Virus record (IMG/VR): IMGVR_UViG_3300031951_001511 | Location: 1-20,275 of that record | DNA length: 20,275 nt | Direction: 5' to 3' (one strand) | Source: a virus | Part shown: positions 6,804-9,813 of the stretch, piece by piece | Layout: each line of letters begins with the position of its first letter | Numbering within the stretch: the first letter of the stretch is position 1 | Notes under the pieces: model-generated | Databases searched by the model: none | What the model saw: only the letters and a program-made list of their open reading frames with translations | What the model was told of the DNA's origin: nothing | Program-made: the position numbers and the translations under genes

Positions 6804-7211
6804 ATGGCCATCACCGGCTATAACACTACGCTGCAACTCGACAACGCGGCGGGAACTCTGACCTCGCTTGGCGAGGTGGTCAGCATCACGCCGATCAACG
6901 TCGCGGTCGGCACGGTTGAGGCTACTCACCTGACCTCGACCTCGGGCTATCGGGAATACCTCTCGACCCTGAGCGATGCGGGCGAGGCGTCCGTGACCAT
7001 TAGCTGGACCCCTGGCAACGCCACCGACGTCATTCTCTACACCGCCGCGACTGATCGCCTTGTGCGGACGTTCAAGCCGACGTTCCCGAACACGAAGTTT
7101 ATTTCGGTTGAGTGCTTCGTGACCAGCTACTCGCCCGGCGCCATCAACGCCGACGGCAAGATGGAAGCGACCTTCACCGTCAAGTTCACCGGCGTCCCGA
7201 CCTACGGGTGA
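6804..7211 (+). CDS. Major tail (tube) protein
   Basis: A 135-residue protein with the composition and strand pattern of siphophage tail-tube subunits. The N-terminus GYNTTLQLDNAAGTLTSLG is followed by 'v..I..i.......ve.T.l.s..gyre....l.D.ge.s...', visible here as VEATHLTSTSGYREYLSTLSD. This 'T-H-L/M-x-S' motif and the later ATFTVKFTGVPTYG are typical. The ring subunits stack around the tape measure to form the tube. TGGAG at 6792-6796 lies seven bases before the ATG. Its position directly upstream of the chaperone and tape-measure genes supports the call. Confidence 0.9.
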   Translation: MAITGYNTTLQLDNAAGTLTSLGEVVSITPINVAVGTVEATHLTSTSGYREYLSTLSDAGEASVTISWTPGNATDVILYTAATDRLVRTFKPTFPNTKFISVECFVTSYSPGAINADGKMEATFTVKFTGVPTYG

Positions 7212-7214
7212 TAA

Positions 7215-7556
7215 ATGCCTAACGCTTTGAAAGGCGAGGTTGGGTTTGAGGTCGAGGGCGAGGCTTATACCCTCCTCCTCGACTTCAACGCCCTGTGTGA
7301 ACTTGAAGCGGCTTTGACGCCGGGTGATGACCGCAACGGCCCCAGGGCATCGCGTGCAACCCTCTGGGCGGCTTTGCAACGCCATCACGCGGACCTGTCG
7401 CTGAACGACGTGGGCGACCTCATCGCGGCCTTGACGCTTCCCCGCGTGCGCGAACTGATCGGCCAGGCGTATGACGCTGCCGGCCTTAACGAGGTGCTTG
7501 GCGGAAACCCTCTGAAGGCCCCGGCTCGGAAGAAGACGACCAAGACCGGGGCATAA
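7215..7556 (+). CDS. Tail assembly chaperone, unshifted product (GTA gp10-like)
   Basis: A 113-residue protein recognised as the GTA gp10 type of tail assembly chaperone. The markers are GEVGFEVEGEAYTLLLDFNALCELEAAL, a beta start and helix typical of this group ('l......l.fd.nAlcelE...g'). The stretch ATLWAALQRHHADLSLNDVGDLI follows ('lWa.L...h..ls..e.g.li'). It would bind the tape measure while the tube polymerises, playing the part of lambda gpG. The position between tube and tape-measure genes is diagnostic. The last 16 codons contain a slippery heptamer and stem-loop, described separately, from which a longer protein is probably made. Confidence 0.9.
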   Translation: MPNALKGEVGFEVEGEAYTLLLDFNALCELEAALTPGDDRNGPRASRATLWAALQRHHADLSLNDVGDLIAALTLPRVRELIGQAYDAAGLNEVLGGNPLKAPARKKTTKTGA

Positions 7557-7849
7557 GCGGCGCCCTCGGCGTCTATTACGAACTTGGGGGCGCGAGCGAA
7601 GATCAGTTCTGGCGTTTTACGCCGCGACTGTTTCGGCTGTGGATGGCGGCAAAGACGAAGGCGGCTAAGGCAGAGCGGGAGTTTTCCCGCTGGTGTGTCT
7701 GGCACGCTGCGGCGCTCCCCCGCGCTAAGGACTTTCCAGACCTTGGCCTGTTCGTGACCGGCGTTAGGCCGCCGACCCGTCGCCAGACCCCTGAAGAAAT
7801 CGAAGCCGTGTTCCACGCTATGTTCGGACCACCGCCGGAGGATGCTTGA
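7215..7849 (+). CDS. Tail assembly chaperone, predicted -1 frameshift fusion (G-T type)
   Basis: If ribosomes slip back one base at 7505-7511, residue 99 (Pro, zero frame) is followed by the -1 frame from TCT at 7511 and translation continues to the TGA at 7847-7849. The fusion has 211 residues. The -1 frame is open over this whole span but has no start codon with a ribosome site. Its only ATG (7643) lies inside what looks like one domain, since the segment SEDQFWRFTPRLFRLW lies upstream of that Met. That segment resembles the small second chaperone ('fW.lTp.e') that follows gp10 in alphaproteobacterial GTA clusters. The T part then has a basic helix and ends EEIEAVFHAMFGPPPEDA. By analogy with lambda gpGT, the fused tail would recruit tube subunits. 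Read conventionally, 7643-7849 would be a 68-residue stand-alone protein. Confidence 0.8.
7505..7552 (+). promoter_or_regulatory. Programmed -1 ribosomal frameshift signal
   Basis: A canonical X_XXY_YYZ heptamer, A_AAC_CCT, lies at 7505-7511 in the zero frame of the chaperone gene. After a 6-nt spacer (7512-7517) comes a perfect 7-bp stem, GCCCCGG (7518-7524) with CCGGGGC (7546-7552), around a 21-nt loop. AGACG in the loop (7534-7538) could also pair with CGTCT at 7570-7574, giving a possible pseudoknot. Heptamer phase, spacer length, stem strength and the open -1 frame all agree. The zero-frame stop (7554-7556) lies right after the stem. Confidence 0.82.
7837..7841 (+). promoter_or_regulatory. 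Ribosome binding site fixing the tape-measure start
   Basis: GGAGG at 7837-7841 is seven bases before the ATG at 7849. This favours ATG 7849 over the in-frame TTG one codon upstream (7846). The site lies inside the end of the frameshifted chaperone frame. Confidence 0.75.
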
Positions 7850-9813
7850 TGGCAGGTTCGGTGATCGGCGCCCTCCGGGTAAGCCTTACGGCAGAGACGG
7901 CTCAATTCGACAAGGGCATCGACCGGTCCAAAACCAAGCTTCGCCAGTTTGACGCCGACACCCGCAAGATGGCGGGCAGCGTTTCGGACCTTGGCCGGGA
8001 TTTTGGAACCGGGTTCGGTCCCGTCGGGACGGTTCTGGACAAGATCGGGGCGGCGGGCCTGGTGGCCGGCGCTGGCGTCGGCGCGGCTGTTGTCGCGTTT
8101 CAGGGGATGCAAGCGGCGCTGAAGTTCGCCGACGATCTGGACGCCACGGCGACAAAGATTGGCGTGACCGCTGAGCAGTTTCAGGAACTGACCTTTGCGG
8201 CCAAAGAGAACGACATCACGACGGAGGCCCTTAGCCAATCGTTGCAAGGGCTGAACGTCGCCCTCGGCGCCTACAAGTCAGGCGTGGGTGACGCCAAGGT
8301 CAAGAAGGTGTTCGAGGCTTTGGGCATCACGCCGGAAAGCCTGGCCGACGTCAACAACGCCGCCGACTTCCTGCCGATGCTCGCCGACAAGATCAAGGCT
8401 CTAGGCTCGACGGCTGAGCGCGTGAAGATCGCCAAGATGATGGGCGTCGAGGATCTGGTCCCGCTGCTTATGAAGGGCGGTGACGAAATCGACCGACTGG
8501 CCGCCAAAGCGCGTGACCTCGGCTTGGTCATGTCCAACGAACTCACCGCGAAGGCCGCTGACGCCAATCGCGAGCTTGAGGTGATGGGCGACTATATCAC
8601 CGCGCATCTGTCGATTGCGTTTGCCGGTCTGGCGACATGGCTCAACGATGCGGCGAAGGACTTTCAGCCTCTGATCGACAAGATCAGGGAAGCCACTCAA
8701 GCCATGCGCGAATATCAAGCGGGCAGGGGCCGGGATATTGCGGCTCGCCAGCGCGAACGCGCCGCCGCGATGGAAGCGGCCAACGGCGGACGGCCAACCC
8801 GACAAAGCGCCCTGCTGCGCTCCGACGCTGAGAAGTACGACCCGACGCAGTTCGGCGATAGCGCCATCAGCGACCGCATGGGAACCCAGGCTTCGTTCGA
8901 TGCCATGAGGCCACAAGGCGGCGGCGGCGGTGTCAATCGCAGCGGTGGTGGTGGTCGCGGGGCTTCCCGTTCGCGCGCCGCTGGCAAGCCGCGCTTTACC
9001 GGCAAGCTTCCGGACTATATCGCCGCCCTGATTGCCGAGGGACGGTTCACTGAAGCGTCTATCCGCGAAGCATACCCCGACGGCAACTTCCCCATGCAAG
9101 GGGGCGTCTTCCTACCCGATCCGGTGGTGGTCGATAGCAAGACGGCGTTCGACGCGGCGGACCTTGTGGCCAACGCGCGGCGGGTAGATGAAAGCCCTAC
9201 GGGGTTCAGGTCTTCGGCAGATCGCGTTGGCGACGTCACGTCGGCCATTGAGGCGACCAAGGATCAAAACCGCGAAGCCTTCCGCGAAATGTTCTCCGGC
9301 GGGCTGATGTCCGCCCTTCGCGATGGCGAAGACGGCGTGCGCGAGTGGATGCGCCGCGGCGCTGAGCGCGGCCTGGAACAAGCCCTGAACAACCTCGCCG
9401 ACCTGATCTTCAAGCTGTTCAGCGATTCAATGGGCGGCGGTTCGGGCTCCGGCATCGGATCGTCAATCGGCCAAATCGTCAGCGCCATCTTTGGCGGCGG
9501 CAACAGTTCCAGCATCCCAGGATTTGCGACCGGCGGGAACTTCACGGTCGGCGGGTCCGGTGGCGTTGACAGTCAGCTCGTCAGGTTCCGCGCGACGCCC
9601 GGTGAGATGGTCAACATCAGCCACGGCAACGACAACGGGTCGCGCGGTAGCGTTACGTTTGACATGCGAGGCGCGGTGGTCACGCAAGACCTTTTAAACC
9701 AAATGAACCAGATTGCGGCAAACGGCGACGCGCAGGTTCTCGGCGCCGTCGCCCGTGAGAAACAGCGCGGCGACAAGGCCAGTCGCTACACGGTGGCGAG
9801 GGCGCGGCGATGA
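7849..9813 (+). CDS. Tail tape measure protein
   Basis: A 654-residue protein, the longest in the tail-tube block, directly downstream of the chaperone. The N-terminus LRVSLTAETAQFDKGIDRSKTKLRQFD is the usual tape-measure opening. A hydrophobic stretch follows at about residues 67-85 (GAAGLVAGAGVGAAVVAF), then long Ala-rich helices. A glycine-rich break lies near residues 357-372 (GGGGG and GGGGRG). The C-terminal part has the well-known end motif: FATGGNF, then VGGSGGVDSQLVRFRATPGE. The protein sets tail length. At the usual estimate of about 0.15 nm per residue the tail would be near 100 nm, which is an inference. The stop overlaps the next start (ATGA, 9810-9813). Confidence 0.93.
   Translation: MAGSVIGALRVSLTAETAQFDKGIDRSKTKLRQFDADTRKMAGSVSDLGRDFGTGFGPVGTVLDKIGAAGLVAGAGVGAAVVAFQGMQAALKFADDLDATATKIGVTAEQFQELTFAAKENDITTEALSQSLQGLNVALGAYKSGVGDAKVKKVFEALGITPESLADVNNAADFLPMLADKIKALGSTAERVKIAKMMGVEDLVPLLMKGGDEIDRLAAKARDLGLVMSNELTAKAADANRELEVMGDYITAHLSIAFAGLATWLNDAAKDFQPLIDKIREATQAMREYQAGRGRDIAARQRERAAAMEAANGGRPTRQSALLRSDAEKYDPTQFGDSAISDRMGTQASFDAMRPQGGGGGVNRSGGGGRGASRSRAAGKPRFTGKLPDYIAALIAEGRFTEASIREAYPDGNFPMQGGVFLPDPVVVDSKTAFDAADLVANARRVDESPTGFRSSADRVGDVTSAIEATKDQNREAFREMFSGGLMSALRDGEDGVREWMRRGAERGLEQALNNLADLIFKLFSDSMGGGSGSGIGSSIGQIVSAIFGGGNSSSIPGFATGGNFTVGGSGGVDSQLVRFRATPGEMVNISHGNDNGSRGSVTFDMRGAVVTQDLLNQMNQIAANGDAQVLGAVAREKQRGDKASRYTVARARR

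Follow-up and report, generated by a model that had tools for sequence, protein, structure and literature searches.

Predicted −1 frameshifting between a GTA gp10-like tail chaperone and its start-less partner in a phage tail module and in related gene transfer agent loci

Locus layout and the two proteins

The window, i.e., the whole stretch of 20,275 nucleotides (nt) analyzed here, carries two overlapping open reading frames (ORFs) between a tail tube gene and a tape measure gene, with the following features.

6804 to 7211, plus strand: major tail tube protein gene, lambda-like, upstream of the pair (PF16461, 5e-17, at 6804-7208)
7215 to 7556, plus strand: upstream chaperone ORF, gene transfer agent (GTA) gp10-like, the G equivalent, 113 amino acids (aa)
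7490 to 7849, plus strand: open −1 frame, the T equivalent, predicted to be read from 7511, 112 aa after the shift
7491 to 7496, plus strand: internal Shine-Dalgarno (SD)-like GAGGTG, a putative stimulator, 8 nt before the heptamer
7505 to 7511, plus strand: slippery heptamer A_AAC_CCT, in phase, kept in 14 of 73 clusters of related loci
7508 to 7511, plus strand: C_CCT slip core, where Pro CCT would be re-read as CCC; the family's most widely shared element
7518 to 7524, plus strand: 5′ arm of a 7-bp stem, GCCCCGG, the same in relatives L001 to L004
7546 to 7552, plus strand: 3′ arm of the stem, CCGGGGC, pairing with 7518-7524
7849 to 9813, plus strand: tape measure protein gene, downstream of the pair (several tape-measure PHROGs at 7846-9810, best 4e-20)

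Around the slip site the 0 frame reads GGA AAC CCT CTG, with GGA AAC CCT at 7503-7511, and it stops at TAA 7554-7556. The −1 frame is shut by TAA 7487-7489, is open from 7490, and ends with the TGA at 7847-7849, which overlaps the tape measure ATG at 7849 as TGATG. Between 7490 and ATG 7643 this frame contains no ATG, GTG, or TTG, only ATA at 7553 and CTG at 7628 and 7637; the ATG, the only one of the −1 product, is its residue 45. A sequence-only reading of the stretch had placed an in-phase A_AAC_CCT at 7505-7511, followed the −1 frame to a TGA ending at 7849, and found no usable start for the second ORF, and all three points are exact. Both the gene order (tail tube, chaperone pair, tape measure) and an overlapping second ORF in the −1 frame without its own start are hallmarks of frameshifted G/GT chaperones, as is an in-phase slippery motif kept among relatives, which was also found.

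For the upstream protein, profile comparison gave phrog_2115 'tail protein' (2e-11) and a weak match to PF11836 Phage_TAC_11 (GTA gp10) of 16.6 bits, the cut-off being 27.8. Among the aligned relatives, 29 of 38 match PF11836 at E 0.01, the best at 3.7e-14. The −1 product matches phrog_19318 (2.5e-17) over residues 27-104, a match that begins upstream of ATG 7643, and all 38 relatives of this product match the same family. TIGR02216 (the rcc01693 family, GTA gp10.5) was found in 23 of the 38 and PF09550 Phage_TAC_6 in 19, at E 0.01; the window's downstream protein scored 18.2 bits in the profile test, below 56.1. In AlphaFold models, the upstream protein is folded to residue 89 and continues as a low-confidence tail with the slip site at residues 98-99, and the −1 product is folded from about residue 15, with predicted helices at residues 15-24 and 30-35 preceding the ATG. 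The frame change thus falls, in these models, in a linker between two domains. A PDB fold search with both models returned no convincing match, the first-ranked entries 3fgx and 3klu (YqbN) having Z scores of 4.5-4.7, too low to count, and no solved structure matched the profile of either protein in sequence at E below 0.3. The window's tape measure protein has 655 aa and gives no match to the RcGTA-type tape measure profile NF058675. The short tape measure of RcGTA-type gene transfer agents was not found here; the window is a phage.

Slip site and flanking signals among relatives

We compared IMG/VR loci that carry both domains, i.e., 87 non-redundant loci in 73 clusters. The second ORF lies in the −1 frame in 87 of 87. 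By itself this relation is weak proof, because simple ATGA or TGATG overlaps also give −1, and it carries weight only in combination with the lack of a start. Between position −60 and the FW motif, ATG, GTG, or TTG occurs in the −1 frame in 13 of the 73 clusters; the corresponding counts for the two remaining frames are 40 and 55.

When the codons of the gene are shuffled, an in-phase XXXYYYZ motif turns up in the shift window 9.7% of the time. With a chance of about 10% for a heptamer, the single locus is only suggestive, and the case therefore rests on conservation in relatives. Near the gene end, the 73 clusters contain 48 XXXYYYZ motifs in phase versus 11 and 6 in the two alternative phases, 64 CCCT in phase versus 8 and 3, and 14 AAACCCT in phase versus 0 and 0. 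In-phase C_CCT is present in the overlap in 58 of the 73 viral clusters, mostly with AAC, CGC, GAC, or GGC before CCT. The 14 clusters with A_AAC_CCT have GGA, GCA, CTA, GAA, CCA, or AAA in front of AAC, i.e., codons for six amino acids that always end in A, and local codon usage gives each such cassette a 0.6 to 9% probability. When every Asn-Pro pair within the final 40 codons was counted, so as not to select on the motif, 14 of 17 were encoded as A_AAC_CCT. Proline codon choice near the gene end is likewise dependent on the preceding base: CCT accounts for 54 of 103 proline codons after C (expected, 18.5) and for 9 of 129 not after C (expected, 26.2).

Clusters devoid of C_CCT mostly have another heptamer, such as G_GGA_AAC or G_GGA_AAG; no slip heptamer was found in L067, L141, and L148. 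In some loci the place of the shift is narrowly bounded: the −1 frame opens as near as 7 nt upstream of CCT, and a 0-frame stop directly follows CCT. Conservation of C_CCT could come partly from a conserved Pro-Ser-Glu in the −1 frame, which would also require −1 translation there. The sequence-only reading had proposed alignment of homologues as a check on its core claim, a −1 frameshift fusing a gp10-like chaperone to a start-less partner, and that claim is supported by the recurrence of the heptamer or C_CCT and of the open start-less −1 frame. In three viral loci (L081, L083, and L090), a G_GGA_AAG heptamer occurs together with an ATGA start at the junction, and both routes may coexist there.

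C_CC.U is a measured shift-prone tetramer in Escherichia coli, and cognate re-pairing in the A site, the rule for efficient bacterial motifs, favors −1 shifting (PMC4066793). The change from CCU to CCC leaves the proline tRNA cognate, in line with that rule. In E. coli, AAN and UUN heptamers are on average stronger than CCN heptamers (PMC4066793), and the frameshift level at the CCN motif of the window may therefore be low.

The SD-like GAGGTG, absent from the sequence-only account of the cassette, is not followed by a start codon in the −1 frame. Across relatives, anti-SD pairing peaks 7-22 nt upstream of CCT. The mean best anti-SD energy is −8.5 versus −7.3 kcal/mol in synonymous-codon shuffles for 58 phage clusters (p = 1e-5), and −8.7 versus −7.35 kcal/mol for 26 GTA loci (p = 0.001), the GTA loci being related to each other so that p-values overstate independence. 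In the nine GGGAAAC/G loci, the SD-like signal is not above shuffles (p 0.37). At the family level, these comparisons indicate that the SD-like element goes beyond codon choice, and we propose that it stimulates frameshifting.

The 3′ stem is less widely shared. The 6-nt spacer and perfect 7-bp stem of the sequence-only reading are exact, and conservation of the stem extends only to L001-L004 and to the distant L043, which has a 10-bp stem at the same place with changed base pairs (AGCCCCGACG/CGTCGGGGCT); the stem is not kept in L010-L021. Folding of 7512-7580 yields −29 kcal/mol (z −2.4), and 4 of 200 shuffles fold equally well. A role of the 3′ stem as a general stimulator was rejected, as z is below −1.5 in that interval in only 16 of 58 loci. 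The 5-bp complement AGACG/CGTCT (7534-7538/7570-7574) is present in the sequence, but the pseudoknot built on it is not supported: one pair is broken in L004, which retains heptamer and stem, and the 3′ arm lies within a competing hairpin. Between the window and L004, the cassette forms an island of 80-93% identity, and identity drops to 37% and 67-70% in the flanks. Over 7345-7495 the chaperone genes of these two loci are 37-67% identical, and their tail tube and tape measure genes are mostly 73-100% identical, which suggests that the G-like gene was replaced or is fast changing inside an otherwise close tail module.

The second ORF might instead be an independent gene, translationally coupled to the first and initiated from ATG 7643 or from a non-canonical codon (CTG, ATA), the heptamer being incidental. 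An ATG is indeed present at 7643, public annotations give two genes in the isolated phages Kronos, Shpa, and Pben1, and some GTA lineages have ATGA or GTGA starts. However, a start at 7643 would cut off the conserved FWRFTP segment, which sits before it, and two predicted helices, and this ATG is missing in L003 and L008, which have Ile there. Moreover, among relatives this stretch is poor rather than rich in start codons, and the slip motif and SD-like element are constrained at the nucleotide level, so that we consider an independent gene improbable. In Caulobacter phage Kronos (MH884648.1, L006 2127-2860), the annotation has the second ORF begin at an internal ATG (2570), which cuts the conserved domain, and the overlap contains a C_CCC_CCG heptamer in phase. 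The annotated Kronos partner protein is probably truncated for these two reasons.

Fusion by transcriptional slippage, or by +2 or other recoding, would be compatible with the homopolymers seen in the overlap of a few relatives (A7 in L091, C6 in L039 and Kronos), but no run exceeds three bases at the window's site, and both the codon-phase bias (64 versus 8 and 3) and an SD-like element at ribosomal spacing implicate the ribosome, making this explanation very unlikely. A sequencing error or gene decay that split one ORF into two frames, by which the pair would be a single fusion broken by a frame change in a 20-kb IMG/VR virus record, is refuted by recurrence and has a negligible probability, given that the same −1 break is found in all 87 non-redundant loci, where both frames are conserved and a single-frame fusion never occurs, and that it recurs in many bacterial genomes.

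The chaperone pair in gene transfer agents

TIGR02216 searches provided gp10/gp10.5 pairs from alphaproteobacterial genomes for the GTA comparison. The L214 and L217 clusters have RcGTA-type neighbors (TIGR02217 and NF058675 in both, TIGR02215, 02218, and 02219 in L217). A search of 18 genomes with the RcGTA tape measure profile NF058675 gave matches in 18 of 18, next to the pair in nearly every case, at scores below the family's own cut-off. Of 24 loci in one bacterial family, 17 place g10.5 in the −1 frame, lack any start ahead of its domain, and contain an in-phase C_CCT_TTN located at, or within 12 nt of, the first residues of the g10.5 domain. C_CC.U_UU.C is a high-level frameshift motif in E. 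coli (PMC4066793). Two further bacterial families comprise 53 −1 pairs, 28 of which lack ATG or GTG near the junction, 10 of these having TTG, which is ambiguous as a start. In-phase C_CCT is present in 25 of these 28 pairs versus 4 of the 25 that have ATG or GTG (p = 6e-8), arguing that slip motif and start codon largely exclude each other, although the relatedness of the loci makes this p-value overstate independence as well.

In RcGTA, g10 and g10.5 are described as two tail chaperone genes, and recoding is not mentioned (PMC11409702). The open-access literature searched, which leaves subscription journals outside, contained no paper linking GTA gp10/g10.5 to frameshifting. The sequence-only reading had likewise taken the GTA pair for separate genes; this agrees with publication, but many RcGTA-type loci have a start-less −1 partner with C_CCT. 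It had also held that homologues with an independent start for the second ORF would speak against frameshifting. Such starts do exist in some GTA lineages, and since these lineages mostly lack the slip motif, they fit an alternative route rather than a refutation.

Genuine GTA gp10/gp10.5 is likely to be a G/GT frameshift pair in many lineages, in which an internal SD and C_CCT, often as C_CCT_TTN, would lead to a fusion; elsewhere an ATGA or GTGA start appears to replace the slip site, so that the two routes would substitute for each other in evolution. In seven GTA loci (L220, L221, L223, L224, L231, L234, and L237), the slip core enters the stop codon as C_CCT_TGA, creating a TTGA overlap; this may represent a transitional state between frameshifting and the use of an ATGA or GTGA start. 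The partner is in the +1 or the same frame and has its own start in the GTA-type loci L176, L184, L188, and L211, where the two are clearly separate genes.

Proposed mechanism and known systems

It is highly probable, from sequence and comparison, that a −1 frameshift joins the GTA gp10-like chaperone of the window to its start-less partner and that the locus encodes two forms of a tail assembly chaperone. From the frame geometry, the absent start, the conserved slip site and SD-like element, and the gene order, we infer the occurrence of slippage, its level, the tRNA step, and the role in assembly as follows. Most ribosomes would stay in the 0 frame and stop at 7554-7556, producing the 113-aa gp10-like protein. 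A minority would pause at 7505-7511, with GAGGTG at 7491-7496 paired to the 16S anti-SD and the stem at 7518-7552 ahead. The tRNA-Pro would then re-pair from CCU to CCC and the tRNA-Asn from AAC to AAA, moving the frame back by one base, and the 112-aa T-like domain would be added via a flexible linker. As in lambda G/GT, the short form may serve to coat the tape measure protein, whereas the fusion may recruit the tail tube protein. In lambda, tail assembly is set by the ratio of short to fused chaperone.

The mechanism is known, and the window adds a new case of it; in the open-access papers searched, neither the slip signal shared across the family nor its occurrence in GTAs appears to have been reported. 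If GTAs and their phage relatives share this recoding switch, both partners would be misannotated in many genomes, with the partner shortened at an internal ATG, and the second GTA chaperone may be present mostly in fused form. The exchange between frameshift site and start codon could then be tested by comparing related lineages. The range of natural bacterial −1 signals would be widened by a proline CCU slip core that follows an SD-like element.

The −1 signals of dnaX and IS911 use A-rich motifs. The site described here resembles them in having an SD-like sequence shortly upstream of the slip site and, in the window, a 3′ stem (IS911 stimulators, PMC4066793), but the A-site codon is Pro CCU. 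RcGTA g10/g10.5 (PMC11409702) belong to the same two protein families and occupy the same place, and related GTA loci have a start-less −1 partner with C_CCT; in contrast, the RcGTA genes are published as separate, several lineages have ATGA or GTGA, and the comparison covered junctions other than that of Rhodobacter capsulatus. The phiCbK-like Caulobacter phages encode the chaperones gp93/gp94 with the heptamer AAAAAAC, or GGGAAAC in Colossus (PMC3556154). Like the present pair, these are a chaperone and an extension predicted to be joined by −1 frameshifting, they precede the tape measure gene, and they occur in phages of alphaproteobacteria; the heptamers differ, and the likeness concerns the arrangement. 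The closest parallel in layout is lambda G/GT (PMC5009743), which shares the order tail tube, G, T, tape measure and the combination of a short chaperone with a longer −1 form whose T part has no start of its own. Unlike lambda, the present family pairs PF11836 with PF09550/TIGR02216, uses A_AAC_CCT or its C_CCT core together with an internal SD-like element, and has a fusion that is predicted.
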